Of a stretch of 64,000 bases of DNA, positions 3,677 to 22,896 are shown piece by piece (the stretch's first letter is position 1; each line of letters opens with the position of its first letter). The notes under the pieces were generated by a model. That model ran no database searches, was not told the DNA's origin, and worked only from the letters and a program-made list of their open reading frames with translations. The DNA comes from Streptomyces sp. SLBN-118 (lineage in GTDB: Bacteria > Actinomycetota > Actinomycetes > Streptomycetales > Streptomycetaceae): the NCBI RefSeq assembly GCF_006715635.1, contig NZ_VFNP01000001.1:310001-374000 (forward strand), written 5' to 3'. Position numbers and translations under genes: made by a program.

Positions 3677-3710
3677 GGCCACCCAGACCCTTCCTGGGGC
3701 CCTTCGGCCC
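3677..3710. promoter_or_regulatory. DevR/OsdR-type box pair between usp and hydrogenase maturation operon
   Basis: A perfect 14-bp site GGGCCCTTCGGCCC lies at 3697-3710. A weaker 14-mer (GGCCACCCAGACCC) lies at 3677-3690, with centres 20 bp apart. The 5-4-5 layout equals that of the mycobacterial DevR box (GGGAC-N4-GTCCC). The strong site ends 61 bp before the protease ATG and 97 bp from the divergent usp ATG. Regulator binding is inferred from the motif and from an encoded DevR homologue at 22973. Confidence 0.7.
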
Positions 3711-3770
3711 AACGCTCCCCGGCAGGTCCGCACGCAGGCTGGAGACAAACGCAGTGGAGGGAGAGGAATC

Positions 3771-4310
3771 ATGTCCGGCTCCACGCACTCCGCCCGTATC
3801 GCCATCATCGGGGTCGGCAACGAGTTCCGCCACGACGACGGGGTTGCCTGGGCGGTGATCGCCCGGCTGCGGGAGCGGGCTGCCGGCCGTCCCCTGCCCG
3901 CGGGAACAGTCCTGTCGGTGTGCGACGGCGATCCGGGGCGCCTGATCGGGCTGTGGGAGAACGCGGACCTGGCGGTGGTACTGGACGCCGCGCACGCCCA
4001 TCCGGACCACCCGGGGCGGGTGCACCGACTGGAGCTGGAAGCAACCGAGCTGGGGAGGCCGCACACAACGAGTTCGCACGGGCTGGGCCTCGGTGAGGCC
4101 GTCGAGCTGTCGCGGGCGCTCGGGCGACTGCCCGGTCATCTCGTGGTCTACGCCGTCGAAGGGGCGGACACCTCGCTCGGCACGGGACTGTCGGAGCCTG
4201 TTGCCGCCAGGGTCGAAGCACTCGTCGAACGAGTGGAGGACGAGATCGTCAGCCACCGGGACACGGCCGCCCGCGGCCCCAGCGACGCACGCAGCGGAGG
4301 CCAACCGTGA
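3771..4310 (+). CDS. [NiFe] hydrogenase maturation protease (HyaD/HybD family)
   Basis: This 179-residue endopeptidase would clip the C-terminal tail of the hydrogenase large subunit after nickel insertion. The N-terminus IAIIGVGNEFRHDDGVAWAV has the family's GxGN-x4-DDG signature, whose acidic residue helps sense the nickel. A second acidic/His region (VVLDAAHAH; TTSSHGLGL; VVYAVEGAD) matches the fold. The ATG at 3771 follows GGAGGGAGAGG. Its stop overlaps the GTG start of hypF by four bases (GTGA), showing translational coupling. The cognate substrate is probably the large subunit at 17905-19272, whose C-terminus keeps a removable tail. Transcription probably starts at the palindromic box at 3697-3710. 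Confidence 0.9.
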   Translation: MSGSTHSARIAIIGVGNEFRHDDGVAWAVIARLRERAAGRPLPAGTVLSVCDGDPGRLIGLWENADLAVVLDAAHAHPDHPGRVHRLELEATELGRPHTTSSHGLGLGEAVELSRALGRLPGHLVVYAVEGADTSLGTGLSEPVAARVEALVERVEDEIVSHRDTAARGPSDARSGGQP

Positions 4311-6607
4311 CCGGCGAGCGCGTCGCGCAGCGCATCGAGGTCTTCGGCACAGTCCAAGGCGTGGGCTTCCGCCCGCACGTGCACCGCCTGGCGACCGGCC
4401 TGGAGCTGGACGGCTGGGTGCGCAACGCGAACGGCCATGTGGAACTCACCGTCGCCGGACCGCCCTCCGCACTGCGCGACTTCGTCCACCGGATTCGGCG
4501 CGATGCGCCCCCGCTGGCGGCTGTACGCCGGATACGGGTGACGCACGTCTCCGGCGGACCCCCGGCTCCCGGAACCGGGTTCACCGTCCGCGGCAGTTCA
4601 GCCTCCGCGCCGGACGCGCCCCGCGAGATCCCGCCGGACGCGGCCACCTGTGAGGCATGCCTGCGCGAACTGTTCGATCCTGCCGACCGCCGCTACCGCT
4701 ATCCGTTCATCAACTGCACCGACTGCGGCCCCCGCGCCACGGTCATCCATGATCTCCCGTACGACCGTGCACGCACCTCCATGCGCGGCTTCCCCCTGTG
4801 CCCGCCCTGCGCAGCCCAGTACGCCGATCCCGCCGACCGCCGCTTCCACGCAGAACCCCTGGCGTGCCCCGACTGCGGACCCGTCCTCGCGTGGAACGGA
4901 CTGGCCGGGGAGGACGCGCTGCGCGCCGCCGCGGACGCCGTGGCAGCGGGAGGGATCATCGCGATGAAGGGAATCGGCGGCTACCAACTGGTGTGCGACG
5001 CGGGCAACGCGGCCGCCGTCGCCGAACTCCGCCGCCGCAAGCGGCGCCCCGCGAAGCCGTTCGCGGTGATGGTGCGGGACCTGGCCGCGGTCGAGCACCT
5101 GGCCCGGACCACCCGCACGGAGCGTGGGGTGCTGACGTCCGCGTCGCGGCCCGTGCTGCTCCTCCCCGCCCGTGCCGGGCAGCTGTGCCCCGACGTTCAC
5201 CCCGGAACCGACAGGATCGGGTTGTTCCTGCCCACCACCGGGCTGCATCATCTGCTGCTGCACGATCTGGACCGGCCGATCGTCGTCACCAGCGGCAACC
5301 GGGCGGAGGAGCCCATCGCCATCGACGACGCCGAGGCCCGCCGGAGCCTGGCATCGGTCGCCGACGGCTTCCTCACCCACGACCGGCCGATCCGCGCGCG
5401 CTACGACGATTCCGTGGCCACCGTCGCGGGCCGCACCGTGCTCACCGTCCGCCGAGCCCGCGGCCTCGCCCCCGCGCCCCTGCCGCTCCCCGTCCGCGCC
5501 TCGCTGCCTCTGCTCGCGGCCGGTGCACAGCTCAAACACACCTTCACCCTCGCCGAGGGCAGGCACGCGCACCTCGGCCCGCACGGCGGCGATCTCGCCG
5601 ACGCGGCGACCCTGGACGCCTTTGCGACCTCGTACACCGATCTCCGACGCCTCACCGGCATCACCCCGAGCGCCATCGCCCACGACCTCCACCCGGGGTA
5701 CCTCTCCACACAGTGGGCCCGCTCCTGGCCCGTCGAGCAGCGCATCGCCGTCCAGCACCACCACGCCCACGTGGCCGCCTGCGCCGCAGAACACGGCGTG
5801 CGTGGGCCCTTCGTCGGCGTGGCCTACGACGGGCTGGGGCTCGGCGACGACGGCACGCTGTGGGGCGGCGAGATTCTGTTCGCGGACCTGGCCGGCTACC
5901 GCCGCGTCGGCAGGTTCGCCACCGCATCCCTGCCGGGCGCCGAGGCGGCGGTGCGCCACCCGACCCGGATGGCGCTCGGCTACCTGTATGGTGCAGAGAC
6001 GCTGGGCACGCCCCGGCCCGCGCCCTGGCTGACGAAGCCGTTCACCGAACGGCTCGACCCGAGCGAGGTGCGGTTGGTCCGGGCGATGATCGAACGCGGG
6101 ATCAACTGTCCGCGCGCCTCCAGCGCGGGTCGGCTGTTCGATGCGGCCGCCGGTCTGCTGGGGCTCGGCGACGAGGTGTCGTACGAGGGCCAGGCAGCCG
6201 TCGCACTGGAAGCCGCGGCCGGTGACATCCACACCGACGCGCTGCCGTGGCGGCTGGTCCGGGTCGAGGGCTTGTGGGTCTACGACCCGGTCGCGACCCT
6301 GACCGCACTCCTCGAAGAGCTCGCGTCGGGCGTCTGCGTGCCGCGGATCGCCGCCGCCTTTCACACCGCCATTGCCGAGGCGACCGCCGCACTCGTCGAT
6401 CGCGCCGTTGCCGCAGGGGCGCCGCGGACCGTATGCCTGGCCGGCGGCTGCTTCCAGAACCGGCGGCTGCTCACCGCCGTACGAACACTGCTGCGCGCCC
6501 AGGGTCTGCGCGTACTGGTGGGCAGCGCGGTCCCGGTCAACGACGGCGGCATCAGCTACGGCCAGGCGGCGGTGGCCGCCGCCCGGCTGGCGAAAGCGAA
6601 GGGGTGA
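4307..6607 (+). CDS. hypF: Carbamoyltransferase HypF
   Basis: HypF makes the thiocarboxamide precursor of the cyanide ligands of the [NiFe] active site, from carbamoyl phosphate and ATP, transferring it to HypE. The 766 residues give the complete family layout: N-terminal acylphosphatase domain (VFGTVQGVGFRPHVHRLA), two zinc-finger Cys motifs (CEACLREL...CTDCGPR and CPPCAAQY...CPDCGP, about residues 108-190), a YrdC-like domain (about 200-380) and a C-terminal Kae1-like domain with the metal-binding HHHAHVAA motif and ...CLAGGCFQNRRL. Start is GTG at 4307, overlapping the upstream protease stop. hypC follows six bases downstream, so protease-hypF-hypC is one operon. Confidence 0.97.
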   Translation: MTGERVAQRIEVFGTVQGVGFRPHVHRLATGLELDGWVRNANGHVELTVAGPPSALRDFVHRIRRDAPPLAAVRRIRVTHVSGGPPAPGTGFTVRGSSASAPDAPREIPPDAATCEACLRELFDPADRRYRYPFINCTDCGPRATVIHDLPYDRARTSMRGFPLCPPCAAQYADPADRRFHAEPLACPDCGPVLAWNGLAGEDALRAAADAVAAGGIIAMKGIGGYQLVCDAGNAAAVAELRRRKRRPAKPFAVMVRDLAAVEHLARTTRTERGVLTSASRPVLLLPARAGQLCPDVHPGTDRIGLFLPTTGLHHLLLHDLDRPIVVTSGNRAEEPIAIDDAEARRSLASVADGFLTHDRPIRARYDDSVATVAGRTVLTVRRARGLAPAPLPLPVRASLPLLAAGAQLKHTFTLAEGRHAHLGPHGGDLADAATLDAFATSYTDLRRLTGITPSAIAHDLHPGYLSTQWARSWPVEQRIAVQHHHAHVAACAAEHGVRGPFVGVAYDGLGLGDDGTLWGGEILFADLAGYRRVGRFATASLPGAEAAVRHPTRMALGYLYGAETLGTPRPAPWLTKPFTERLDPSEVRLVRAMIERGINCPRASSAGRLFDAAAGLLGLGDEVSYEGQAAVALEAAAGDIHTDALPWRLVRVEGLWVYDPVATLTALLEELASGVCVPRIAAAFHTAIAEATAALVDRAVAAGAPRTVCLAGGCFQNRRLLTAVRTLLRAQGLRVLVGSAVPVNDGGISYGQAAVAAARLAKAKG

Positions 6608-6612
6608 GCGCG

Positions 6613-6900
6613 ATGTGTCTGGGCATTCCCGGCCGGGTCCTTGAGGTCCACGACTCCGGCGGACTGCGCATGGCGACCGTCGACTTCGGCGGAGTGCGGC
6701 GCGAGGTGTGCCTGGAGTACACCCCTGAGGCCGAGGCCGGAACATACGTCATCGTCCACGTCGGCTTCGCCATCACGACCGTCGACGAGGCGGAGGCCGA
6801 GCGGACGCTCGGGGTTCTGCGCGCGATGGCGGACGCCGTCACCGGCGAGCTGGGCGAGCCGCTGCCGCAGGCTCCTGTGGACCGACCGGAAGCGCACTGA
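6613..6900 (+). CDS. hypC: Hydrogenase maturation chaperone HypC
   Basis: HypC (95 residues) shuttles the Fe(CN)2CO unit with HypD and holds the immature large subunit. The essential N-terminus MCLGIPGRV, whose Cys2 is the ligand, is intact. It is followed by VDFGGVRREVCLEY and VIVHVGFAITTVDEAEA, all typical of the HypC/HupF family. The tail (about residues 70-95) is a little longer than in E. coli. It lies directly behind hypF. The palindromic box pair starts one base after its stop, so the next gene has its own promoter. Confidence 0.96.
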   Translation: MCLGIPGRVLEVHDSGGLRMATVDFGGVRREVCLEYTPEAEAGTYVIVHVGFAITTVDEAEAERTLGVLRAMADAVTGELGEPLPQAPVDRPEAH

Positions 6901-6936
6901 GGGCCGGTCGGCCCCGCTGACTGGCCCGGCCGACCC
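6901..6936. promoter_or_regulatory. DevR/OsdR-type box pair upstream of patA-like gene
   Basis: A perfect site GGGCCGGTCGGCCC lies at 6901-6914 and a near-match GGCCCGGCCGACCC at 6923-6936, centres 22 bp apart. The inner site ends 61 bp before the ATG at 6997, the same geometry as at 3.7 kb and 11.5 kb. It sits immediately after the hypC stop codon. Confidence 0.7.
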
Positions 6937-6996
6937 CTGCGGCCGGCCGCGCTCCCGCCCGAGCCTGGACGTGGATCCCACGAGGAGGGCACTGTC

Positions 6997-9702
6997 ATGA
7001 CGCAGACCCACAGCCCCGCGAGCACCGCCCGGCAGGTGCACGCGCTACTGACGGACGGCAGGACAGTGCGGATACGGCCGGCGGAGCCGACCGATCACGA
7101 CGCCGTCATGGCCCTGTACGAGGGCATGTCGGCCGAGAATCTGCGGCGGCGCTTCTTCACGGTGAGCCACCTGTCCGTCGAACAGGCAGCCGGCCGGCTC
7201 ACTCGGCGCGACCGGTCCGGCTACCGCGCTCTGGTCGCGGAGAGTGACGGGCGGCTCGTCGGACTCGCCGAGTGCGAGGCCATACCGGAATCGACGACGG
7301 CCGAGATCGCACTCAGCATCGCAGACGACTGGCACCACCGGGGCCTGGGCACCTTGCTGCTGGAGCATCTTGTCGACGCCGCCCGCCAGGCGGGCATCAC
7401 CGCTTTCGCGGCGGACGCACTGGCCGAGAACCACGACATGCTGAAAGTGTTCGCCGACCTCGGCCTGCATACGACCCGCCGCTTCGACGGTCCCGAAGTG
7501 CGCTGCACGGTCCAACTCGCCGCGAATGAGGACTACCTGTCCGCGGTCGACAACCGGGCGAGCACCGCCGACGTGGCCAGCCTGAAACCACTGCTGCGGC
7601 CCCGCACGGTCGCCGTCGTCGGCGCGGGCCGAAAGGCAGGCTCGGTCGGCCGGGCCGTGCTGCGCAATCTGCGGACCGGTGGTTTCGCCGGCCGTCTGGA
7701 CGCGGTCAATCCGCATGCGGACGCGATCGAGTGGGTGAGCTGCCACCACTCTGTGGCCGAGCTGTCCTTTCCGCCCGATCTCGCCGTGCTCGCCGTCCCC
7801 GCGGACGCTGTACCGCAGGCTGCCGAGGATTGCGGAAAGCTTGGCGCGAGGGCGCTGCTGGTGGTCTCCTCCGGCCTCGACGCCCAGCAGGCGGCCGCGC
7901 TGCTCGCCACGTGCCGTGCGTACGGGATGCGGCTGGTTGGCCCGAACTGCCTCGGTCTGGCCAACACCGACCCGGATCTGCGGCTGAACGCCACCTTCGC
8001 CGCCGACCGCCCCCTGGCGGGCACGGCCGGAGTCGCCGTGCAGTCCGGAGGGGTGGGCATCGCGCTGCTCGACGGGCTGTCCCGGCTCGGCATCGGAGTG
8101 TCCACCTTCGTCTCGCTGGGCGACAAATACGACGTCAGCGGCAACGACATGCTGCAGTGGTGGGAGAGCGACGGGCGGACCGACCTCGCTGTGCTGCACC
8201 TTGAATCCTTCGGCAATCCGCGCGCGTTCTCGCGCACGGCGCGGCGGGTGGCCCGCACGATGCCGGTCCTGACCGTGGACGCCGGGCGCTCCGAGGCCGG
8301 CCGCCGGGCCGCCGCCTCCCACACCGCGGCGGCAGCCACCCGGACCATGACCCGGCAGGCCCTGTTCACCCAGGCCGGAATCATCGCGACCCGCACGATC
8401 GGTGAACTCCTCGACAGTGCAGCGCTGTTGCACTCCCAGCCGGTGCCGTCCGGCTCCTCGGTCGCCATCGTCACCAACGCGGGCGGGGCAGGCGTACTGG
8501 CCGCCGACGCATGTGCAGAGGCCGGGCTGAGGATTCCCGAGCTCGGCAGCGAGCTGGTCGCCGAGCTGCTGACCGGGCTGCCCGAGGGGGCCGCCGCCAC
8601 CAATCCCGTCGACGCCACCGCCGCCGTCAGCGAGACGCAACTGCAGGAATGCGTCGACCGGCTCGCGGCGCACGGGGCCGTGGACGCCGTGCTGGTGGTG
8701 CTGGTCCCCACCGCGGTTGCCGCGGCGACCGGCGACGTTCTCGTCCGGGCCCTGTCCCCCGGCCCGGACCGCCGTCGCTCCCGAACGGTCGCCGCGGTCC
8801 TGCCCGCCCAGGCGGCGCGGGTGGAGCTGCTGCCGACCGCGGGCGGCGGTTTTGTACCCGCCTACTCCGACGCGGCAGACGCGGCCCGCGCCCTGGCGCA
8901 CGCCGTGACGTACGCACGCTGGCGCGCCCGTCCGGAGGGCACGGTGCGCGAGCTCGCAGACGTGGACACCCCGGCGGCGAAAGGGATGGTCGACGCTTTC
9001 CTCGCCGAACATCCCGACGGGGGCTGGCTCGACCCCCGTGCGACGGCCGAACTCCTCGGCCACTACGGCATTCCGCAGATCCGCTGGGAGTGGGCCGAGG
9101 ACGAAGAGGCCGCCGTCGCCGCCGCGGCACGGCTGGCGGGACCTGACGGGCGGGTCGTGATGAAAGCTCACTGGCCGGGGCTGGTCCACAAAAGCGAACA
9201 GGGAGCCGTCCACCTCGATCTTCAGAATGCCTCGCAGGTGCGGGCTGCATACCGCGATCTGGTCACCCGTTTCGGAGACCTGATGACCGGAGTGGTCGTC
9301 CAGCCGCTCGCCGAACGCGGCATTGAACTGTTCACGGGTGTGGTCCAGGATGAAGTCTTCGGCCCGCTGGTCCTGTTCGGCCTGGGCGGTACGGCGACCG
9401 AGCTCCTGGCCGATCATGCGGCCCGGCTCGCCCCGCTGACCGACCACGACGCCCACGACCTCATTACCTCGCCGCGCTGCGCGCCGCTGCTCTTCGGCTT
9501 CCGCGGCGGAGGCGCCGTCGACCTCGAAGGACTGGAGCAGCTGCTGCTGCGGCTGTCCCGGATGGCCGGTGACCTTCCGCAGCTCGCCGAGGCCGATCTC
9601 AATCCCGTGATCGCCCGCCCGGGCGGCATCACGGCCCTTGACGTCCGCGTCCGGCTTGTCCCGCGGCAAGCCCGCAACCCGTATCTGCGCCGACTGCGCT
9701 GA
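6997..9702 (+). CDS. GNAT acetyltransferase fused to NDP-forming acyl-CoA synthetase domain (PatA type)
   Basis: At 901 residues this is a large protein-lysine acetyltransferase-like fusion. Domains in order: GNAT (about residues 20-170; acetyl-CoA loop IADDWHHRGLGTLLLEHLV), Rossmann CoA-binding (about 190-310; RTVAVVGAGRKAGSVGRAV), succinyl-CoA-ligase-like (about 320-480) and ATP-grasp (about 660-890; GRVVMKAHWPGLVHKSEQGA). His442 in ASHTAAAAT sits where ADP-forming synthetases carry the phosphohistidine. In Salmonella Pat the GNAT domain is C-terminal; the reversed order here is the one described for Streptomyces lividans PatA, which acetylates and switches off acyl-CoA synthetases. It has its own box pair and starts an operon with the CBS and flavodoxin genes. 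Whether the synthetase part is catalytic cannot be judged by eye; in Pat it is regulatory. Confidence 0.88.
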   Translation: MTQTHSPASTARQVHALLTDGRTVRIRPAEPTDHDAVMALYEGMSAENLRRRFFTVSHLSVEQAAGRLTRRDRSGYRALVAESDGRLVGLAECEAIPESTTAEIALSIADDWHHRGLGTLLLEHLVDAARQAGITAFAADALAENHDMLKVFADLGLHTTRRFDGPEVRCTVQLAANEDYLSAVDNRASTADVASLKPLLRPRTVAVVGAGRKAGSVGRAVLRNLRTGGFAGRLDAVNPHADAIEWVSCHHSVAELSFPPDLAVLAVPADAVPQAAEDCGKLGARALLVVSSGLDAQQAAALLATCRAYGMRLVGPNCLGLANTDPDLRLNATFAADRPLAGTAGVAVQSGGVGIALLDGLSRLGIGVSTFVSLGDKYDVSGNDMLQWWESDGRTDLAVLHLESFGNPRAFSRTARRVARTMPVLTVDAGRSEAGRRAAASHTAAAATRTMTRQALFTQAGIIATRTIGELLDSAALLHSQPVPSGSSVAIVTNAGGAGVLAADACAEAGLRIPELGSELVAELLTGLPEGAAATNPVDATAAVSETQLQECVDRLAAHGAVDAVLVVLVPTAVAAATGDVLVRALSPGPDRRRSRTVAAVLPAQAARVELLPTAGGGFVPAYSDAADAARALAHAVTYARWRARPEGTVRELADVDTPAAKGMVDAFLAEHPDGGWLDPRATAELLGHYGIPQIRWEWAEDEEAAVAAAARLAGPDGRVVMKAHWPGLVHKSEQGAVHLDLQNASQVRAAYRDLVTRFGDLMTGVVVQPLAERGIELFTGVVQDEVFGPLVLFGLGGTATELLADHAARLAPLTDHDAHDLITSPRCAPLLFGFRGGGAVDLEGLEQLLLRLSRMAGDLPQLAEADLNPVIARPGGITALDVRVRLVPRQARNPYLRRLR

Positions 9703-9710
9703 GAGGAGCA

Positions 9711-10448
9711 ATGGACATGAAGCACATGAAGATCGGTGCACTGATGGTCGATGACGTCGTCAAGGTCACCTACGACACTCCGTTCAAGGAAGTGGCCCAG
9801 CTGCTCGGCGAGCACCGCATCAGCGGACTGCCGGTGGTCGACGAGGACGAGAAGGTCATCGGGGTGATCTCGGAGACCGACCTGATGGCCCGGCAGGCCG
9901 AGGAACCGGCGCTGGACGAGCACGGACGGCCGCACTGGCTCAGCCGGTTGCACATCTCCAAGGCGCATGATGCGGACAAGGCCCATGCCCGTACCGCGGG
10001 AGCCTTGATGTCCGCGCCTGCCATCACCGTGAGGGCCGAGTCGACCATCGCGGAGGCCGCCAGGACCATGGCGCAGCGCCGGATCAAGCGGCTGCCCGTG
10101 GTCGATGAGGAGGACCGGCTGGTCGGCATCGTCACCCGCCGGGATCTGCTCCAGGTCTTCCTGCGGCCGGACGAGGAGATCCGCCGTGCGGTGGTGGACG
10201 AAGTGGTCGTCAACGCTCTCTGGCTCGACCCGGAAACCTTGACGGTCGACGTGAGCGAAGGCGTCGTCACGCTCAGCGGCCAGTTGGAGCGGCGCAGCGA
10301 CGTACCGATTGCGCTGCGGATGGTCAGCCAGGTGGACGGAGTCGTGGCCGTCGTCGACACGTTGACCTACCGCATGGACGACTCGCATCTGCGGCCCGAC
10401 GAGCCGGCCGTCTATGGCGTCGGCGAGGAGTGGCTGCGCAGGCACTGA
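9711..10448 (+). CDS. CBS-pair and BON domain protein
   Basis: A 245-residue cytoplasmic protein with two CBS motifs (about residues 8-60 and 97-150; each ends in a VIGVISETDLM / LVGIVTRRDLLQVF strand) and a C-terminal BON domain (about 165-235; LTVDVSEGVVTLSGQLERR). CBS pairs usually bind adenine nucleotides, so it may sense energy charge; the BON domain is usually a lipid- or partner-binding module. Start ATG at 9711 follows GAGGAGC, eight bases after the preceding stop, so it is cotranscribed with the acetyltransferase gene. A sister gene of the same architecture lies behind the hydrogenase large subunit (19295). Confidence 0.9.
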   Translation: MDMKHMKIGALMVDDVVKVTYDTPFKEVAQLLGEHRISGLPVVDEDEKVIGVISETDLMARQAEEPALDEHGRPHWLSRLHISKAHDADKAHARTAGALMSAPAITVRAESTIAEAARTMAQRRIKRLPVVDEEDRLVGIVTRRDLLQVFLRPDEEIRRAVVDEVVVNALWLDPETLTVDVSEGVVTLSGQLERRSDVPIALRMVSQVDGVVAVVDTLTYRMDDSHLRPDEPAVYGVGEEWLRRH

Positions 10449-10460
10449 GGAGGTGTCCGG

Positions 10461-10979
10461 ATGAACGCCAGAGTACTTGTCGCATACGGAACGAAGAACG
10501 GCTCGACTGCAGAGATCGCGGGCGTCATCGCCGACGCACTGGAAGGGGAGGGACTGCGCTCCGAAGCCCGGCCTGCCGCGGAGGTCCGCGATGTCCCGGA
10601 GTATGACGCGGTGGTGCTCGGCGGCGCCCTGTACGCGGGCCGCTGGCACCGCGACGCCGTACGCTTCGCCCGCCGCCACGAGCACGCCCTGGCCGAGCGG
10701 CCGGTGTGGCTGTTCAGCAGCGGTCCGCTGGACGCCTCGGCGGGCGAACGCGACATCCCTCCGGTGCGGGGTGCTGCCCGCGCGGCGACCCTGCTGGACG
10801 CCCGGGAGCACGTCACTTTCGGCGGCCGGCTCGAGGAGGGAGCCCGGGGCTTCGTCGCCCGGATGATCGTCAAGCAGGGGCGAGGCGGTGATTTCCGCGA
10901 CATGGAGCGGATACGCGCCTGGGCCCGCGGCATTGCCAAGGAAATCGGAGAAGGGGCGGGGCCGGCGTCGTCGACGTGA
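10461..10979 (+). CDS. Flavodoxin-domain protein (HemG-like)
   Basis: This 172-residue protein begins VLVAYGTKNGSTAEIAGVIADAL, a flavodoxin phosphate-binding loop (T-x-N-G-S-T) for FMN. VVLGGALYAGRWHRDAVRF and WLFSSGPLD match the oxygen-independent protoporphyrinogen oxidase/flavodoxin group. It lies 12 bp behind the CBS-BON gene with an AGGAGG site in between, so it belongs to that operon. A second flavodoxin lies at 12636-13181 on the other strand. The electron partner is unknown; within a hydrogenase island an FMN carrier could link NAD(P)H or H2 to haem or stress metabolism, which is inference. Confidence 0.85.
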   Translation: MNARVLVAYGTKNGSTAEIAGVIADALEGEGLRSEARPAAEVRDVPEYDAVVLGGALYAGRWHRDAVRFARRHEHALAERPVWLFSSGPLDASAGERDIPPVRGAARAATLLDAREHVTFGGRLEEGARGFVARMIVKQGRGGDFRDMERIRAWARGIAKEIGEGAGPASST

Positions 10980-11064
10980 GGCACCCCGCAGAGTTGTCCC
11001 CGCGCGACTCCCGCGCCTGAGGGGCAGCCGGCCTGCCCCAGCACAAGCCGAAGGAGATCGCACC

Positions 11065-11507: not shown

Positions 11508-11534
11508 GCTGCGTCGCCCCTCGCTGCGCCGTGT

Positions 11535-11569
11535 GGCCCGCACGGCCAGCCACTGGGGACCTTCGGCCC
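11535..11569. promoter_or_regulatory. DevR/OsdR-type box pair upstream of Acg-like nitroreductase
   Basis: The strong site GGGACCTTCGGCCC lies at 11556-11569; a weaker GGCCCGCACGGCCA lies 21 bp upstream (11535-11548). The strong site ends 59 bp before the GTG start at 11628, matching the other units. Confidence 0.7.
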
Positions 11570-11627
11570 CAGCGGCGCCCGTGGGCAGGACCTGATGCTG
11601 GAGGCAATCCGACGAAGGGAGGCCATC

Positions 11628-12611: not shown

Positions 12612-12635
12612 CCCCCCACTCCGGGCAGCGCGTAC

Positions 12636-13481: not shown

Positions 13482-13538
13482 GAGGGCCTCCCAGAGCCGG
13501 TACCTCCCATGTGAAACCGGGTGGGGCTCCGGGCGCGA

Positions 13539-13573
13539 GGGCCGAATGGCCCGCGCCGCGGGTCACCCGGGCC
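13539..13573. promoter_or_regulatory. DevR/OsdR-type box pair for minus-strand unknown-flavodoxin operon
   Basis: The perfect site GGGCCGAATGGCCC lies at 13539-13552; the partner GGGTCACCCGGGCC lies at 13560-13573, centres 21 bp apart. The inner site ends 58 bp from the ATG at 13481 (minus strand). On the plus strand it is followed only by the 3' end of the next Usp gene, so it can serve only the minus-strand operon. Confidence 0.7.
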
Positions 13574-14528: not shown

Positions 14529-14623
14529 GATCCGCACCTCCGTCCCGCTCAGCTGTGGGGGCTCGCACCTTCCATCACGTAGCGAGGCGGGGTGCGACAC
14601 ACGGTGCTGTCCTTCCCCTTTCA

Positions 14624-14658
14624 GGGCCGAACGACCCAGGCGAAGGGCCGGGCGGCCC
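14624..14658. promoter_or_regulatory. DevR/OsdR-type box pair between usp and hydrogenase operon
   Basis: Two near-perfect sites lie here: GGGCCGAACGACCC (14624-14637) and GGGCCGGGCGGCCC (14645-14658), centres exactly 21 bp apart, i.e. two helical turns. The right one ends 66 bp before the first hydrogenase gene and the left one starts 96 bp from the usp ATG. This is the clearest pair in the window. Confidence 0.75.
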
Positions 14659-14723
14659 GTAGTAGCGGTGCGGCGTCTGCCGGACGCTGAGGTTGTCAGC
14701 CTCGTCACATCCAGGGGGACGAC

Positions 14724-15863
14724 ATGGATGAGAATCCTGCAGTCGCCGTACTCGACAGGACCGGACTCGACGCGCTCATCAGGCTGCTCGTCTCGCAGGG
14801 GCGCACTGTCGTCGGACCCACTGTCCGGGACGGAGCGATCGTCCTCGCCGAGCTGGCCTGCGCCGACGAGCTGCCTTTCGGGTGGGGCGTCGAGCTGGAG
14901 GCCGGTCACTACCGGCTGCGCCCGCGCGACGACGGGGCGGCCTTCGCGCACAGCGCGGGGCCCCATTCGTGGAAGACGTTCCTGCACCCGCAGCGGGAGA
15001 AGCTGTGGAGCGCGGACCGTGGACCCGACGGCGAGCTGACGGTACAGGCCGAAGAAGCGCCTTCGAGTTCGTATGCATTTCTGGGCGTACGGCCCTGCGA
15101 TCTGAGGGCCATCGCGATCCAGGACCGGGTACTGGCCGGCGGCCGGTTCCGCGACGACGGGTACGCCGGGCGGCGCGCGGGCGCGCTGCTGATCGCCGCC
15201 GAGTGCACCGAGCCCGGGGCCACGTGCTTCTGCGCCTCCATGGGCTCCGGGCCCGCAGCCGATGCGGGCTTCGATCTGGCGCTCACCGAGATCGTGGACG
15301 GTGCCGGGCATCGTTTCCTCGTACGCACCGGAAGTGAGGAAGGCGCGGCGCTGCTCGCGGACATTCCGCACCTGCCCGCAGACCCGGGGACCGAGGCCGA
15401 CGCACGCGCCGCCGTCGCCGGAGCCGCAGACCGGATGGGCCGGTCCGTGCCGCCGGTCGACCTGCGGGCGCTTATGGGCGCGAGCCTGGACGCCGAGCGT
15501 TGGGACGAGGTCGCACAGCGCTGCCTGACCTGCGGAAACTGCACCATGGTGTGCCCGACCTGTTTCTGCACCACCACCGAGGACGTCACCGATCTGACCG
15601 GCGACCACGCCGAGCGGTGGCAGCGCTGGGATTCCTGCTTCGACCTCGACTTCTCCTATCTGCACGGCGGACCGGTCCGCGCCTCCACGCGCAGCCGCTA
15701 CCGCCAGTGGCTCACACACAAAGTCGGCACCTGGCACGACCAGTTCGGCAGCTCCGGCTGCGTGGGCTGCGGCCGCTGCATCGTCTGGTGCCCTGTCGGC
15801 ATAGACCTCACCGAAGAGATCACGGCACTCAACGAGGAACTCCAGCAAGAGGCAGGCCGATGA
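14724..15863 (+). CDS. hyhB: Group 3b [NiFe] hydrogenase beta (Fe-S) subunit
   Basis: This 379-residue electron-transfer subunit resembles the beta subunit of sulfhydrogenase and anaerobic sulfite reductase subunit A. Two [4Fe-4S] motifs sit near the C-terminus: CLTCGNCTMVCPTCFC and CVGCGRCIVWCPVG. An earlier cysteine cluster (FLGVRPCDLRAIAIQD; CFCASMG) is typical of the family. It relays electrons between the small subunit and the flavin subunit. ATG at 14724 follows CAGGGGGACGAC. Its TGA overlaps the next ATG (ATGA), so the operon is tightly coupled: beta, cNMP-domain protein, gamma, small, large. Confidence 0.93.
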   Translation: MDENPAVAVLDRTGLDALIRLLVSQGRTVVGPTVRDGAIVLAELACADELPFGWGVELEAGHYRLRPRDDGAAFAHSAGPHSWKTFLHPQREKLWSADRGPDGELTVQAEEAPSSSYAFLGVRPCDLRAIAIQDRVLAGGRFRDDGYAGRRAGALLIAAECTEPGATCFCASMGSGPAADAGFDLALTEIVDGAGHRFLVRTGSEEGAALLADIPHLPADPGTEADARAAVAGAADRMGRSVPPVDLRALMGASLDAERWDEVAQRCLTCGNCTMVCPTCFCTTTEDVTDLTGDHAERWQRWDSCFDLDFSYLHGGPVRASTRSRYRQWLTHKVGTWHDQFGSSGCVGCGRCIVWCPVGIDLTEEITALNEELQQEAGR

Positions 15864-16315
15864 ACACGACCACGATGATGCGGGCGATGCCCGCCGAGCA
15901 CCGCAACCAACTGCTGCGCATCGCTCGCGAGGTCAACTTCCCGCAGGGAACCCGCATCTTCGAGGAAGGCAGGCGGGCAGACCGTTTCTGGATCATCCGC
16001 TCCGGCACGGTCACCCTCGACATGCATGTACCGGGCCGCCCGGCGGCCATCATCGAGAACCTGGGCCTGGACGAGCTCGTCGGCTGCTCCTGGCTGTTCC
16101 CGCCCCACACCTGGCAGCTGGGCGCACAGGCGACGAGCCCGGTGCGCGCCTACGAGTTCGACGCAACTGCGGTGCGCCTGATGTGCGAGACCGACCCCGA
16201 ACTCAGGGCAGCGGTCGCCCAGTGGGTGGGCCAGGTGATCGCCCACCGGCTGCAAGCGGCCAGGACCCGGCTGCTCGACCTGTACGCCCCCTACGGCAGC
16301 GGCAGCCCTCGATGA
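15860..16315 (+). CDS. Stand-alone cyclic-nucleotide-binding-domain protein inside hydrogenase operon
   Basis: The 151 residues consist of one cNMP-binding beta-roll: GTRIFEEGRRADRFWIIRSG (CRP-like strands), AIIENLGLDELVGCSWLF in place of the phosphate-binding cassette, and two C-terminal helices. There is no helix-turn-helix, so it is not a CRP-type transcription factor. It overlaps the genes on both sides by four bases (ATGA at each end), so it is made in step with the hydrogenase subunits and is probably a subunit or modulator. The canonical R-x-A-S/T phosphate-binding residues are not obvious, so it may bind another ligand. A similar gene occurs, as far as I recall, in mycobacterial group 3b operons. 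Confidence 0.85.
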   Translation: MNTTTMMRAMPAEHRNQLLRIAREVNFPQGTRIFEEGRRADRFWIIRSGTVTLDMHVPGRPAAIIENLGLDELVGCSWLFPPHTWQLGAQATSPVRAYEFDATAVRLMCETDPELRAAVAQWVGQVIAHRLQAARTRLLDLYAPYGSGSPR

Positions 16316-17127
16316 CCGCGCCCCCAGTGCCGTACCGCGTGGTACGCCGCCGTCCCGAGACCGCCGACACGATCACGCTCAGGCTGTCGCCGGCCGGCCC
16401 CGACGCGCTGCCCGCGTTCGCACCGGGGCAGTTCGCCATGATGTACGCCTTCGGGGTGGGCGAGATCCCGGTTTCGGTGTCCGGCATCCACGGCCCGTCC
16501 CTCGAACACACGGTGCGTGCCGTCGGTGCGACCTCTGGGGCATTGCACGCATTGCTGCCCGGAGACAGGGTGGGACTGCGCGGCCCCTTCGGCACCGGCT
16601 GGGAGCTGGAGCGGGCGGCCGGGCAGGATGTCCTGGTCGTCGCGGGCGGCATCGGGCTGGCTCCGCTGCGCCCGGTGATGGTCGCCGCGCTGGCCGACCC
16701 GGGCCCGTACAGGAGGCTGAACCTGCTGGTCGGCGCCCGCAGCCCGGACGATGTCGTCTTCCATGAGCAACTGCGGCACTGGGCGCACCGCCGCGGCCCG
16801 CACGTGGCCGTCACCGTCGACCGGGCGGGCCGGGACTGGCACGGCGGGGTCGGGGTCGTCACCACGCTGCTGAACGGCGCCCGTTTCCAGCCCGACCGGA
16901 CGACGGCGTTCGTCTGCGGCCCCGAGGTCATGATCCGCGCAGTCGCCCGCGAACTGCTTCACCGCGGGCTGCCGGCGGAGCGAATCAGGGTCTCGCTGGA
17001 GCGGAACATGCGCTGCGCGACCGGGCACTGCGGACACTGCCAGCTGGGACCCGTCCTGCTGTGCCGCGACGGTCCGGTCCTCGGCTACGACCGCGCCGAA
17101 CCTCTCCTCATTGTAAGGGAGTTGTGA
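16312..17127 (+). CDS. hyhG: Group 3b [NiFe] hydrogenase gamma (FAD/NAD(P), 2Fe-2S) subunit
   Basis: The 271-residue diaphorase subunit belongs to the ferredoxin-NADP reductase / dihydroorotate dehydrogenase electron-transfer family. The FAD domain (about residues 1-100; [20 protein letters not shown]) is followed by an NAD(P) domain ([28 protein letters not shown]) and a C-terminal [2Fe-2S] site C-x4-C-x2-C ... C ([17 protein letters not shown]). It exchanges electrons with NAD(P)H; group 3b enzymes usually prefer NADP. The start ATG at 16312 overlaps the preceding stop; a longer in-frame start at 16183 would overlap the cNMP gene and lacks family similarity. Confidence 0.93.
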
Positions 17128-17128
17128 G

Positions 17129-17908
17129 ATGGACACTCCGACGCTCGCCGCTCCTACCCTGGCGATCTGGAAACTGGCCTCCTGCGACGGCTGCCAGCTC
17201 ACCCTGCTGGACTGCGAGGACGAACTCCTCACCCTGGCCGGGCAGGTGGAGATCGCCCACTTCCTGGAGGCATCGAGCGCGGTAAGGCCGGGTCCGTACG
17301 ACCTCTCCCTGGTCGAGGGCTCGGTGACTACGGCCGCAGACGCCGAACGTGTCCGCGCCATCCGCGCCGAGTCGCGCCGGCTGGTGACGATCGGAGCCTG
17401 CGCCACGGCCGGCGGCATCCAGGCCCTGCGCAACTTCGCGGACGTCGAGGAGTTCCGGCGCACCGTCTACGCCCGGCCCGACTACATCGACACGCTGAGC
17501 ACCTCCACCCCTGTCTCGGCCCATGTGGACGTCGACTTCGAGCTGCGCGGCTGCCCCATCGACCGAGGCCAGCTGCTGGAAGTCATCACCGCCTTCCTCA
17601 CGGGCCGCAAGCCCGACATCCCCAACCACAGCGTGTGCTTCGCCTGCAAGCGGCGCGGCACGGTCTGCGTCACCGTCGCCCACGGCACGCCCTGCCTGGG
17701 GCCTGTCACCCACGCGGGCTGCGGAGCGATCTGTCCGGCGTACGGACGCGGCTGCTACGGCTGCTTCGGCCCCTCCGGATCGGTGAACCTGACCGCCCTG
17801 ATCCCGCTGCTGCACCGCGACGGCATGGATGACCGCGATGTGGAGCGGCTCCTGCGCACCTTCAACGCCGCCGCCTTCGACCGGGAAGCGAAGGAGGCCA
17901 CGCCGTGA
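17129..17908 (+). CDS. hyhS: Group 3b [NiFe] hydrogenase small subunit
   Basis: The 259-residue small subunit carries Fe-S clusters that take electrons from the active site. The proximal cluster ligands are seen in [17 protein letters not shown] (Cys19, Cys22), in IGACATAGG and in RGCPIDRGQ. Further cysteines follow in [23 protein letters not shown] and [12 protein letters not shown], as expected for three clusters. There is no Tat signal peptide, so the enzyme is cytoplasmic, in line with group 3b. ATG at 17129 is one base after the gamma-subunit stop, preceded by AAGGGAG. It overlaps the large-subunit GTG by four bases. Confidence 0.95.
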
Positions 17909-19272
17909 CGCATCGTGGATCGAGAGTCCTGCACGTCGGCTCGCTCTCCCGCGTGGAGGGCGAGGGCGCCCTCCACGTACACATGCACGAGGGACGGGTC
18001 ACCGAGACGCGACTGCAGATCTACGAGCCGCCCCGCTTCTTCGAGGCGTTCCTTCGCGGCCGTGCGTACACCGAGCCGCCCGACATCACCGCCCGGGTGT
18101 GCGGAATCTGCCCGGTCGCATACCAGATGAGCGCCTGCCGGGCCGTCGAGAACGCCTGCGGGGTGGACGTCGACGGACAGCTGGCAGAGCTGCGACGGCT
18201 GCTGTACTGCGGCGAGTGGATCGAGAGCCAGGTCCTGCACATCTATCTGCTGCACGCCCCGGACTTCCTCGGCTGCGACGGAGCCATCGACCTGGCCCGC
18301 GCCCACCGCGGCCACGTCGAGCGCGGACTGCGCCTGAAGCAGACCGGCAACGCCATCCTCGAACTGCTCGGCGGGCGCGCGATCCATCCGGTCAACGTGC
18401 GCCTCGGCGGCTTCCACCGGGTGCCTGCCCGCGCCGAACTGCGGCCGCTCGGCGAGCGGTTGCGTCGCGCCATGGACGACGCCTGGGCCACCGTCCGCTG
18501 GGTGGCCGGCTTCGACTTCCCGGACGCCGGCTGCGACAACGTACTCCTCGCCCTCACCGAGCCCGGCCGCTACGCCATCGACGCGGGCGTCCCGGCGGCG
18601 ATGGCTGCCCCGAGCACGCACGGGCTCCCCGCCGACACCACACGGCGACTGCCGATTCGCACCTTCCCCGTCTCGGCCTTCACGAAGGAGGTCGTCGAAC
18701 ACCAGGTGCCCCACTCGACTGCCCTGCAAGCCACCCTGCGCGGAGAGCGCCACCTCACCGGCTCGCTCGCCCGCTACGCCATCAACGGCAAACTCCTCTC
18801 CCCCACCGCCGTCGAAGCGGCCAAGGAGGCCGGACTTGGCGACCCGCTCGCCGGGACGGTGTGCCGCAACCCCTTCCGCAGCATCCTCGTACGGGCCGTG
18901 GAGGCGCTGTATGCCGTCGAGGAGGCACTGCGGATCGTCGAGGCGTACGAGCCCCCGCCCCGTCCGCACATGGAGGTGACGCCCCGTGCGGGCACCGGTC
19001 ACGGTGCCACCGAGGCGCCCCGGGGTCTGCTGTACCACCGCTATGTCCTGGACGCCGAAGGCACCGTCACCGACGCCGTGCTCGTCCCGCCCACCGCCCA
19101 GAACCAGGCGGCGATCGAGGAGGACCTGCGCCGCCTGGTCCAGGACGAGTCCGACCGGGGCGGGGGCACCGACGCCGAGCTCACAGCACTGTGCGAGCGG
19201 GCCATCCGCAACCACGACCCTTGCATCTCCTGCTCGACCCACTTCCTTGACCTGACCCTCCATCGCAGCTGA
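17905..19272 (+). CDS. hyhL: Group 3b [NiFe] hydrogenase large (catalytic) subunit
   Basis: A 455-residue catalytic subunit with both Ni-binding CxxC pairs: [11 protein letters not shown] (Cys66, Cys69) and [10 protein letters not shown] (Cys440, Cys443). After His446 a nine-residue tail (FLDLTLHRS) remains; it is the expected target of the maturation protease at 3771. The N-terminal [10 protein letters not shown] motif is also intact. Group 3b enzymes are bidirectional, oxidising H2 or discarding reductant as H2, with NADP(H); some also reduce sulfur. Start is GTG at 17905 in the GTGA overlap. The CBS-BON gene follows 22 bp downstream and is probably part of the same transcript. Confidence 0.96.
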
Positions 19273-19294
19273 CCGTCCGGACCAGGAGGGCACC

Positions 19295-19981
19295 ATGCAC
19301 GGCACCCCGCACAACGTGAGCGATGTGATGACCCACACCGTCGTCGCCGTCAGCCGCGACGCGACGTTCAAGGAAATCGTGCAGACCATGGAGCGGTGGA
19401 AGGTCAGCGCCCTTCCCGTCCTGGAAGGCGAGGGCCGGGTGATCGGCGTCGTCTCCGAGGCCGATCTGCTGCCCAAGGAGGAGTTCCGGGAGAGCGACGC
19501 GGACCGCTACACCCAGCTGCGGCGACCGCCCGATCTCGCCAAGGCCGGAGCAGTGACGGCCGAGGAGCTGATGTCCGCCCCCGCCATCACCACCCACCCG
19601 GGCGCGACCCTCCCACAGGCCGCACGGATCATGGCGCAGCGCAAGGTCAAGCGACTGCCCGTCGTCAACGACATAGGCATGCTCGAGGGCATCGTCAGCC
19701 GCGCCGACCTGTTGAAGGTCTTCCTGCGGGACGACGAGGACATCGCCGAAGAGGTCCGCAAGGACGTGGTGTCCCTCCTCTTCCCGATGCAGCCGGAACC
19801 CGTCCGGGTAGAGGTGGAAGACGGCGTGGTGACCCTCACGGGGCGCATCCGCGACACCGCCCTCGTACCCGTCGCAGCCCGCCTGGTGCAGGCCGTCGAG
19901 GGCGTGGTGGACGTGGAGTTCGACCTGACCAGTCCGCACCGGCACCCCGACCCGGCCGAAGGCGCACAGGCTTCGCAATGA
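19295..19981 (+). CDS. CBS-pair and BON domain protein (second copy)
   Basis: The 228-residue protein has the same architecture as the one at 9711: CBS1 (about residues 8-58, ending [11 protein letters not shown]), CBS2 (about 88-142, [14 protein letters not shown]) and a BON domain (about 155-220, [18 protein letters not shown]). ATG at 19295 follows AGGAGG. Its TGA overlaps the hypD ATG (ATGA), placing it between the hydrogenase structural genes and hypD-hypE in one operon. A nucleotide-sensing role in controlling hydrogenase output is plausible but unproven. Confidence 0.9.
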
Positions 19982-21084
19982 AGTACCTCGACGAGTACCG
20001 CGATCCGGCTCTCGCCCTGCAGCTGCTGGACGAGCTTCACCGGACCGCGACCGCGCCCTGGCAGATCATGGAGGTCTGCGGCGGGCAGACGCACACCCTC
20101 GTCCGCCAGGGCATCGACGAACTGCTGCCCGCCGGCATCCGGATGGTGCACGGGCCCGGCTGCCCCGTTTGCGTCACCCCGCTGGAGACCCTGGACCGGG
20201 CCATGGCCGTCGCCGCCCGCCCCGGAGTGATCCTCACCAGCTTCGGGGACATGCTGCGCGTCCCCGGCAGCAGCACCGATCTCCTCTCGCTGCGCGCCAG
20301 GGGCGCGGACGTCCGGGTCGTCTACACACCCATGGACGCCGTACGTCTGGCCGCCGAACTCCCGGACCGCGAGGTCGTCTTCCTCGCCGTCGGCTTCGAA
20401 ACCACCGCACCCGCCAACGCCATGGCGGTGCTCCATGCCTCCCGCCTGGGCCTGTCCAACTTCAGCATGCTGGTCAGTCATGTCCTCGTGCCTCCGGCCA
20501 TGACGGCCCTGCTGGAGTCGCCGGACTGCGAGGTTCAGGCCTTCCTCGCCGCCGGACACGTGTGCGCGGTCATGGGATGGACGCAGTACGAACCGATCGC
20601 CGCCCGCTATCGGGTCCCCATCGTGGTCACCGGCTTCGAGCCGCTCGATCTGCTGGAGGGCATCCTCATGGCCGTCCAGCAACTGGAGCGCGGGCAGCAC
20701 ACGGTGGAGAACCAATACGTGCGGGCCGTGCGCCGCTCCGGCAACACCGAGGCCCAGGACGTCCTGCGCCGGGTCTTCCAGGTCACCGACCGGTCCTGGC
20801 GCGGCATCGGCACCCTGCCCGCCAGCGGTCTCGAACTCACGGATGAATACGCAGAATTCGACGCGGCACAGCGCTACGACATCGGCGGGATGCGCCCCGA
20901 AGAACACCCCGAGTGCATCGCAGGCGCGATCCTCACCGGCGCGAAGCTGCCCACCGACTGCACGGCCTACGGCGTGCGCTGCACGCCCCGCCATCCGCTC
21001 GGCGCGCCCATGGTCTCCGCCGAGGGTACCTGCGCCGCCTTCCACGCGGCGGGCCGAACGAGGCAGGCAAGGAGCCCGGCATGA
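19978..21084 (+). CDS. hypD: Hydrogenase formation protein HypD
   Basis: A 368-residue Fe-S scaffold on which, with HypC, the Fe(CN)2CO group is assembled. Family motifs are intact: [16 protein letters not shown] (active-site Cys), [34 protein letters not shown] and the C-terminal cysteine cluster [10 protein letters not shown]...GTCAAF. Start ATG at 19978 overlaps the CBS-BON stop and its own TGA overlaps the hypE ATG. Confidence 0.97.
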
Positions 21085-22151
21085 CCTCCGACGCGAACCC
21101 CTACTTGACCAGCCTCAACTGCCCTGTCCCGTACGCGGAGAGCGAGCGCGTACTCCTCGGCCACGGAGCCGGCGGGCGGCTGACTGCCGAACTACTGGAA
21201 GACATGATCCTGCCTACCCTCGACGGACCGCAGGAGCAGCCGGGGCCACTCGAAGACGCCGCGCTGCTCCCCGACCATCCCGAACTCGTGGTGAGTACAG
21301 ACAGTTTCGTCGTCAGCCCGCTGTTCTTCCGCGGCGGCGACATCGGCTCACTCGCCGTGCACGGCACGGTCAACGACCTGGCAATGCGCGGCGCCTGGCC
21401 CATCGCACTGACGGTCGCGCTGATCATCGAAGAGGGCCTTGAACTCTCCCAACTCCGTTCCGTGCTCACCTCCCTGGGCAAGGCAGCCCGCGAAGCGGGA
21501 GTCCCGGTCATCACCGGGGACACCAAGGTCGTCGGGAGGGGCGCCGCGGACAAGATCTTCATCAACACCACGGGGGTCGGCCGCGTGCTCTCTTCCCTCC
21601 GCCCCTCCGCCGCCCTCGCCCAACCCGGTGACGCGATCCTGCTCTCCGGCCCCATCGGACTGCACGGCACCACTGTGCTCAGCACCCGCGAGGGGCTGGG
21701 CTTCGAAGCCGACATCGCCTCCGACTCGCAACCCCTTCACCGGCTCGTACGCGCCATGGCCCGCCTCGGCGGCGATGTGCACACCTTGCGCGACCCGACC
21801 CGGGGAGGACTGGCCGCGGCACTCAACGAGATCGCCCGCGATGCACGGATCGCCGTCGAGATCGAGGAGAGCGCCCTCCCCGTACCCACACCCGTCGCCG
21901 CCGCCTGCGATCTGCTCGGCCTGGACCCGCTGGTGGTGGCGAACGAGGGCTGCCTGGTCGCCTTCGTCGCACCATCGGCCGCCGACGAGGCGCTGGCTCT
22001 CATGCGGACCCAGCCGGAGGGCTCGGGAGCGGTACGCGTCGGGCAGGTACCGCGCGAGGGGCAGCCCGGCCGAGTGGTCATCCGGACCCTGGTCGGCGCC
22101 CGCCGGGTGGTGGACATGCCGCTGGGCGAACTGCTCCCGCGGATCTGCTGA
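21081..22151 (+). CDS. hypE: Hydrogenase maturation protein HypE
   Basis: HypE (356 residues) dehydrates the thiocarboxamide on its C-terminal Cys to the thiocyanate used as CN donor. The chain ends with the required LPRIC, the functional cysteine being the last residue. The PurM-like ATP fold is shown by [20 protein letters not shown] near the N-terminus, [19 protein letters not shown] and [16 protein letters not shown]. It is the last gene of the hydrogenase operon; CCGCC-TCCTTG-GGCGG at 22220-22235 could form a weak hairpin behind it. No hypA or hypB follows. Confidence 0.97.
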
Positions 22152-22882
22152 GACCAGCCACCCGCAGCGCGGGCGAGACTGACACGGTACGGCCACAGGA
22201 AGCGGCCGGACACGTACCACCGCCTCCTTGGGCGGGGTGCCGCGCCACGACGCACCGGGCTCAGCAAGGGCTCGCTCGGCCAGCGGCTCGAATCGACAGG
22301 TCCCGTCAGGCGCACCCAAGACGAGAGGCGAGCGCCCCGAGGTCACCCCCGGCGGAAGCTCGGCGCGAAAGGCAGGGGCGCAGGCCCTCGGAGTGGCGGC
22401 CGCCAGGTCCGTCTTGGTCTTCCAGAGCGAACTCCGGCCGGAGCCCTCCGTCCCGGGCCGCGAGGGGGCTGGAGGGGTCAGCCGATGGTGCGCCCCCGCC
22501 CCGGCCTGATCTGGTCCCGCTCCTCACCCCAGCGCTCGGTGGTCCGCTCGGGTCGCCCGCTGCGCCCTCCAGCTGCTCACGATGACCATCACACCGCCGA
22601 CGGCAGCACGAAGGTACCCGCATGCGCGACCTTCAGGGTCGCCTCCTGGGGCGACTGGCTCAGCCACCAGACGTCGCGGTCATCCGTCCACACCCGACCG
22701 TCGTACCGCCGTGGTGCCTGTCGCCACCTGGGCCGTTCCGGTGCGCACGGCTTCTCCGAAGCGGTCCAGCGCGCATTCGACAGGACACGGTCGGTGTCGG
22801 GCCGCAGGCCGGACGCCGCCGACGCGAGGGGCCGCTGGTCCGTGGTCGGCAGGCCAACCGGGGCCTCTCACAGGCCCGACTA
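22152..22882. other. Intergenic stretch, possible small remnant on minus strand
   Basis: No convincing gene. On the minus strand, in the frame ending with TGA at 22589-22591, a short coding-like run (YDGRVWTDDRDVWWLSQSP then ATLKVAHAGTFVLPSAV) looks like the C-terminal tail of a lost protein whose upstream part is out of frame. The rest shows only GC-driven open frames. The weak hairpin at 22220-22235 may end the hydrogenase transcript. Confidence 0.3.
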
Positions 22883-22896
22883 GGGCCGGTCGGCCC
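22883..22896. promoter_or_regulatory. DevR/OsdR-type box upstream of the response regulator
   Basis: A perfect palindrome GGGCCGGTCGGCCC, identical to the one at 6901-6914, ends 77 bp before the ATG at 22973. No clear second site lies 20-22 bp away, though loose half-sites (GGGCC at 22861-22865, GGCCC at 22873-22877) do. Autoregulation is the simplest reading. Confidence 0.65.

Follow-up and report, generated by a model that had tools for sequence, protein, structure and literature searches.

The first 23.7 kb of a 64-kb stretch of the Streptomyces sp. SLBN-118 genome (C1:310001-374000, hereafter the window) carry a [NiFe] hydrogenase gene cluster in which copies of a palindrome, GGGCC-N4-GGCCC, lie upstream of several genes. 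We conclude, with a probability of about 85%, that these sites are OsdR/DevR boxes of the Streptomyces hypoxia/dormancy regulon, that they work by class II activation, and that the hydrogenase is a cargo of this regulon. The evidence is computational and consists of the identity of the boxes, their enrichment, their occurrence before orthologous genes, their pairing, and the fixed distance and orientation of a start element relative to them. The initial annotation of this DNA took the 14-bp palindrome itself for the site. The palindrome is real, but it is merely part of the likely working unit, which comprises paired boxes and a -10-like element. The assignment to the DevR/OsdR family, made in the same annotation, is well supported by a published independent matrix, by boxes before orthologues, by a DevR-type regulator with conserved residues, and by the promoter geometry.

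Box identity and extent of the island

The OsdR consensus of S. coelicolor is AGGGCCGATCGGCCCT, and several of its targets have been tested by electrophoretic mobility shift assay (EMSA) (Urem et al. 2016, PMC5069765). From the 26 sequences in Table 1 of that paper (one of them present twice, mostly predictions, some EMSA-tested) we built a symmetrised matrix, which is independent of the genome analysed here. Genes were called with our own codon-based finder, and 800 kb of evenly placed DNA of the same genome served as control. The island, defined as C1:200001-336000 (136 kb), contains 36 sites scoring at least 11 against 22 in the control, which is 9.6-fold more per base, and 22 sites scoring at least 13 against 5, or 26-fold more. 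Among the island sites of the lower threshold 31 of 36 are intergenic and five coding, in a region whose DNA is 86% coding; of the 22 control sites, 10 lie in coding DNA. Positions 1-23,700 of the window alone hold eight sites of at least 11 where the control predicts 0.65 (P = 4.5e-7) and six of at least 13 where it predicts 0.15 (P = 1.3e-8). A matrix scan for upstream enrichment had been named beforehand as the check to make. Within the sampled 800 kb it found that motif density is not equal and that matrix-matching boxes are enriched upstream of genes, as in an OsdR/DevR regulon.

The sites first listed are present: exact copies of the 14-mer start at 3697, 6901, 13539, 14645 and 22883, and the two variants have one mismatch each (11556, GGGACCTTCGGCCC; 14624, GGGCCGAACGACCC). 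The region from 23.7 to 64 kb, described as lacking equally good sites, has zero exact copies, and its sole matrix site of at least 11 is at 51304 (11.9), an example of the strong sites that also exist outside the island. What had been proposed as one local regulon appears to be a regulon, but its extent is not local: strong boxes are found as far out as C1:202 kb, some 108 kb upstream of where the window begins, and C1:202-333 kb, 1.7% of the genome, holds 15 of the 103 exact genomic copies of the 14-mer. The window is thus one end, the hydrogenase end, of an island of about 130 kb (C1:200-336 kb) with 36 strong boxes.

Boxes before orthologous genes

We searched 80 named loci from relatives, the best 80 of 565 confirmed, for boxes scoring at least 11 within 300 bp upstream of genes. 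Such a box precedes the first hydrogenase gene in 30 of 77 cases, hycI in 19 of 69, the acyl-CoA ligase gene in 14 of 18, the two types of universal stress protein (Usp) genes in 28 of 58 and 16 of 38, and the nitroreductase gene in 7 of 20. The counts are 3/11 for devR, 2/8 for PPDK, 8/43 and 5/45 for the CBS genes, 1/14 and 0/3 for the flavodoxins, and 5/72 for the cNMP gene. Genes inside operons have hardly any (hydG 2/79, hydD 0/79, hydA 0/79, hypC 0/31, hypF 0/27, hypD 1/37, hypE 0/37). Permuted matrices gave means of 0-3.5%, with single ones reaching 36-47% for acyl-CoA ligase, Fld1 and cNMP. The box before the first hydrogenase gene is found in 22 of 31 loci where hypD lies within 3 kb after hydA and in 8 of 46 elsewhere.

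Box pairing and a start element at a fixed distance

Strong boxes of the island tend to have a partner. A second box (score at least 3) lies 20, 21 or 22 bp away at 20 of 216 positions, mutual strong pairs being counted twice, against 0.5 expected, and no partner was found at any position 9-19 bp from a strong box. In the relatives, partners of 245 non-redundant boxes occur 29, 29, 19 and 13 times at 20, 21, 22 and 23 bp, where 1.2 are expected at each distance. The rest of the genome shows five partners at 20-22 bp around 57 boxes of at least 9; a few of those boxes may therefore be real as well.

The second part of the unit is a -10/discriminator-like element, [C/G]ANGCTGGA, 23-25 bp past the gene-proximal box. 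A first scan, which took the nearest box of at least 9 as proximal, was blurred and was redone with weak partners included. An A at +24 together with a T at +28 then occurred in 46 of 139 sequences aligned on the proximal box against 2.9 expected, the top result among some 4,200 letter pairs tried. When 546 non-redundant boxes from the relatives are taken in both orientations, A..CTG peaks at +24 (29 against a mean of 2.9 per position), with further peaks at +45 (22) and +46 (12), as pairing predicts; 91 control boxes gave no clear A..CTG peak. Expectation maximisation (EM) on 1178 box orientations recovered [C/G]A-n-g-c-T-G-[G/A]-A at 23-25 bp in 14% of them, with C or G (86%) or, less often, T (13%) preceding the A. 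Where 137 boxes lie between co-directional genes, the element (at least 5 bits) points toward the gene start in 53 and toward the 3' end in 7 (P = 8e-10). Partner and element also tend to occur jointly: among 277 strong clusters, both are present in 102, the partner only in 21, the element only in 50 and neither in 104, an odds ratio of 10 that is inflated because a paired box has two chances of an element. The element was first found in annotation-oriented sequences; the A..CTG, EM and gap-distribution steps are orientation-free.

The distance is also preferred in a set of 199 Streptomyces genomes, which are mutually related and may overlap in species with the relatives. Searching for a box followed by ANGCTGGA 11-40 bp on gave 146 matches in 101 genomes, and 85 of these have gaps, counted from the 14-mer, of 24, 25 or 26 bp (36, 40 and 9), with a mean of 2.3 for each other gap. 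The preference is weaker than this in other genera of the class (a 197-genome search), where 17 of 51 matches fall at gaps 24-26 with 10% expected (P = 5e-6). Fixed-gap searches of 150 genomes found gap 25 in 94 genomes (174 matches), gap 20, which includes recurrent coding matches, in 74, and gap 30 in 47. Since their reversed-pattern controls were about as large as the counts, we prefer the gap distribution.

If the A of the element is -11 and its T is -7, the centre of the proximal box would fall at -43.5 and that of the distal box near -64.5. Provided that the element is the -10, the boxes are thus paired with the proximal one over the -35 region, as in class II promoters of DevR. The leaders predicted for six genes of the window measure 22, 24, 24, 29, 39 and 40 nt; they agree with one another and were not used in the fit, and therefore support the -10 assignment.

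Predicted promoters of the window

The region between usp1 and hycI contains a strong box at 3696..3711 (score 13.2), proximal for hycI-hypF-hypC, and 21 bp from it a weak one at 3675..3690 (-1.0), which is distal for hycI on the plus strand and proximal for usp1 on the minus strand, with a -10-like element 24 bp off on the minus side. The hycI element AGGCTGGA (3736..3743, +) gives a predicted start at 3747, 24 nt before the ATG at 3771; the usp1 element AGGCTCGA (3643..3650, -; 6.2 bits) gives one at 3639, 40 nt before the ATG at 3599. The acyl-CoA ligase gene has a strong distal box at 6900..6915 (18.8), whose 16 letters are identical to the SCO0204 box listed in PMC5069765, and 22 bp away a weak proximal one at 6922..6937 (3.8); its element AGCCTGGA (6962..6969, +; 10.6 bits) predicts a start at 6973, 24 nt before the ATG at 6997. 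At the nitroreductase gene the order of strengths is reversed, with a weak distal box at 11534..11549 (-1.0) and, 21 bp on, a strong proximal box at 11555..11570 (13.8), followed by the element ATGCTGGA (11595..11602, +; 11.3 bits) and a predicted start at 11606, 22 nt before the GTG at 11628.

Three boxes separate usp2 from the hydrogenase operon: a weak one at 14603..14618 (3.4), proximal for usp2 on the minus strand, a strong one in the middle at 14623..14638 (12.3), and a strong one at 14644..14659 (11.0), proximal for the hydrogenase operon. The operon's element ACGCTGAG (14684..14691, +; 9.3 bits) predicts a start at 14695, 29 nt before the ATG at 14724. On the other side, GTGATGGA (14571..14578, -; 8.8 bits), in which G replaces the usual A, predicts a start at 14567, 39 nt before the ATG at 14528.

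The initial annotation had each site heading a transcription unit, six in all. The strong box at 13538..13553 (14.7), however, has no convincing target: it faces a 97-codon open reading frame (ORF), lies about 360 bp before the flavodoxin-like gene, and its -10-like element reaches 3.3 bits only. The list of units changes too, because two intergenic regions appear to fire both ways. A strong box overlooked before (6-21, score 14.2) lies within the 3' end of the PPDK gene; the start element is absent from it in both directions.

Regulators and kinase

The gene at 22973..23674 (+) encodes a DevR-type response regulator. Its residues 13-230 align with M. tuberculosis DevR (E = 9e-79), and D65, T93 and EKTVKN (at 193) are the counterparts of DevR D54, T82 and the recognition helix, which we take to be the phosphorylation Asp, the cooperativity Thr and the DNA-reading part of this NarL-type family. 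D54 and T82 of M. tuberculosis DevR are named in PMC3029386 and PMC4973870. The protein had been proposed as the binder of the sites. It is of the right type, but it cannot be named the sole binder because the same island encodes a second DevR-type regulator, 79% identical to it, at C1:223306-224049. The devR gene of the window is preceded by a single, near-perfect box at 22882..22897 (20.5), which has no partner and a -10-like score of 1.0; the box of the paralogue (C1:224107-224122) has the same 16 letters and score and is also single. The devR boxes in the relatives' loci L053 and L068 are alike, and the other devR genes examined have weaker boxes or none. The autoregulation of devR may use another geometry.

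A DevS-like kinase is encoded at C1:297173-298888. Its GAF domain resembles that of DevS (E = 2e-44) and 2vzw (E = 4e-47), as in DevS/DosT-type kinases, and is predicted to bind heme. A GAF-HisKA_3 protein is encoded near C1:201-202 kb, the HATPase domain being absent from the piece scanned. Regulator and kinase do not form one operon, as the next mapped gene after devR is on the opposite strand and the kinase gene is about 36 kb off.

Genes of the window and the island

The PPDK gene (5-2662, -; Pfam PPDK_N/PEP-utilizers) is on the same strand as usp1 and follows it; usp1 (2688..3599, -) and usp2 (13626..14528, -) encode tandem universal stress proteins (Pfam Usp). The genes 3771..6900 (+; Pfam) code for the hydrogenase maturation proteins HycI-type protease, HypF and HypC, and those at 6997..10979 (+; Pfam/NCBIfam) for an acyl-CoA ligase with a GNAT domain, a CBS-BON protein and a flavodoxin. 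A 126-codon ORF at 11127-11507 has no Pfam match. The nitroreductase is an FMN oxidoreductase of the Acg (Rv3131) family (11628..12611, +; GTG start at 11628), which exceeded the cut-off of NCBIfam NF047509 when scanned from 11634, and a flavodoxin-like gene follows at 12636-13181 (-). The [NiFe] hydrogenase operon (14724..22151, +; Pfam/NCBIfam) encodes the Fe-S (beta) subunit, a cNMP protein, the flavin (gamma), small (delta) and large (alpha) subunits, a CBS-BON protein, HypD and HypE. The large subunit keeps the Ni-ligand motifs CGIC and DPCISC and has sulfhydrogenase 1 alpha as its closest solved structure (E = 4e-59). These motifs and the alpha-beta-gamma-delta gene set are of the sulfhydrogenase type (group 3b), a label that we assume from homology; Hyh of M. 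smegmatis is of group 3b. NCBIfam equivalog cut-offs for the subunits of sulfhydrogenases 1/2 were not reached, the best (ShyA/HydA, ShyD/HydD, HydB/ShyB and related) staying far below, and we therefore call the enzyme a relative of the sulfhydrogenases. Between hypE and devR, a 132-codon ORF (22485-22880) has no Pfam match. No HypA or HypB gene was seen among the scanned genes of the island.

Outside the window, the island encodes the A and B subunits of a V/A-type ATPase (L019:10773-13897, which is C1:260773-263897; Pfam ATP-synt_VA_C), an enzyme unusual in this kind of bacterium, and a strong box (12.5) at C1:256775 lies upstream of this gene run. Two large NarG-like molybdopterin oxidoreductases adjoin strong boxes (L016:15784-19497, -; L017:3826-7521, +), and L018:13308-17671 encodes a NuoF-like protein and then a molybdopterin oxidoreductase with Fe-S domains, formate-dehydrogenase-like.

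Discussion

Simple enrichment fails: with up to two mismatches the 14-mer occurs at chance (209 matches, 202 +/- 15 in shuffles), and the exact 14-mer is rarer genome-wide than its reversed control (103 vs 161). The looser 14-mer was dropped as a site definition on account of that count, and the case depends on the improved site definition and on position. Several results weigh against reading these sites as DevR-type class II promoters. In the island alone (43 boxes), A..CTG has no clear peak, and 104 of the 277 strong clusters lack both partner and element. Within the window, the usp2 element is without the A and that of usp1, at 6.2 bits, stays below the 99% null of 6.7, while neither of the devR boxes, the highest-scoring of all (20.5), has a partner or more than a poor element. 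Pairs of two exact boxes in the 199 genomes show no clear spacing peak, with 11 of 46 at 20-22 bp among the matches listed after removal of evident low-complexity arrays, perhaps because the partner box is usually weak. In the relatives, 47 of 77 loci, the closest relative L036 included, have no box of at least 11 before the first hydrogenase gene, and seven further loci with hypD after hydA have none of at least 9.

GC-rich palindromes with a 4-nt gap are able to fold, and the one at 6901 begins directly after the hypC stop codon, so that the sites might be RNA hairpins, terminators or leader structures, instead of protein sites. We consider this very improbable. The sites at 3696 and 14623 are located between divergent genes, ahead of both starts, which is no place for a terminator. 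Hairpins would not be expected to have partners spaced 20-23 bp apart or a start element at a constant distance, and transcription from the predicted starts would begin beyond the boxes, leaving these untranscribed from their own promoters. The start element itself invites another explanation, namely that a special sigma factor reads it and that the box merely modulates a separate promoter class. Such a factor would fit the use of C or G (86%) rather than T (13%) immediately before the A, and also the near absence of TANNNT downstream of the boxes (five occurrences over 74 positions in 121 sequences); neither TANNNT nor TTGAC nor GTT showed a clear peak near boxes. Weak -10 elements are, however, frequent at activator-dependent promoters. 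In M. smegmatis, moreover, the -10 element is usually ANNNT, with the preceding T present or not, and ANNNT without it is common among promoters (PMC6448022). We therefore think a special sigma factor unlikely.

More plausible than either, though still doubtful, is that the boxes are real but that the other DevR-type regulator (C1:223306-224049) is the main one to use them, the regulator of the window having another task. The paralogues are 79% identical, each gene has a 20.5 box before it, and no kinase gene was seen adjoining either; on the other hand, a DevR gene is in or near the hydrogenase cluster of several relatives (L037, L053, L068, L088).

The letters of the M. tuberculosis DevR/DosR box differ from those of the OsdR box. 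Promoters of that regulon are alike in that adjacent strong and weak boxes are bound cooperatively, the proximal box overlaps -35, and the divergent genes tgs1-Rv3131 share boxes; they differ in that no fixed box-to--10 distance is given in the parts of PMC3029386 and PMC4973870 consulted. The OsdR/OsdK (DevR/DevS) system of S. coelicolor shares the 16-bp box, an autoregulatory site at a similar distance from osdR, and Usp, nitroreductase, PPDK and nitrate reductase genes near the regulator, whereas there regulator and kinase are adjacent and here they are not, with two regulators present (PMC5069765). The words hydrogenase, tandem and spacing are absent from the main text of PMC5069765. It lists a pair at -248 and -268 of SCO0517, a 20-bp spacing, with no discussion of pairing found in it by word search. 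DevR of S. coelicolor binds upstream of narG2 (PMC4766573), and in S. lividans genes of the OsdR region are co-expressed with osdR (PMC6302529, where 'hydrogenase' occurs once, with no clear statement on such a gene seen). Hyh of M. smegmatis, from another genus and with another gene order, is a hydrogenase important in hypoxia and listed as dos-regulated (PMC8125079). In the open-licence literature, a scope that leaves many journals outside, we found no report of a hydrogenase under OsdR or of a fixed box/-10 spacing in Streptomyces.

Binding, phosphorylation, activation, transcription starts, signal and physiological role are predicted for this organism from its sequence, and may fit together as follows. 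A DevS-type heme-GAF kinase would sense the loss of O2 (or NO) and phosphorylate the DevR-type regulator, two dimers of which would bind cooperatively to boxes 20-23 bp apart, about two helical turns. The proximal box, centred near -43.5, would replace the -35 element, and RNA polymerase would be recruited to a weak -10, [C/G]ANGCTGGA, whose first T is missing and whose discriminator is G-rich. In divergent regions a single array could serve both promoters, with the outer box on either side acting as the proximal one for the promoter next to it. The output would be a soluble [NiFe] hydrogenase and the proteins for its maturation, together with Usp proteins, the Acg flavin protein and the acyl-CoA ligase; when oxygen is lacking, these would serve to dispose of reductant and to save energy.

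With moderate confidence we propose that Streptomyces, and probably other Actinomycetes, use one composite hypoxia promoter, in which boxes phased at 20-23 bp stand 23-25 bp before an activator-dependent [C/G]ANGCTGGA, with devR genes as a separate single-box type, and that here it drives an island of about 130 kb with two DevR paralogues, a DevS-like kinase, two NarG-like enzymes, a V/A-type ATPase and the hydrogenase. A box pair with a spaced start element is a sharper signature than the box alone for finding targets and predicting starts, and the starts given here are single-base predictions. A Streptomyces hydrogenase would thereby be tied to the dormancy regulator, as in M. smegmatis.

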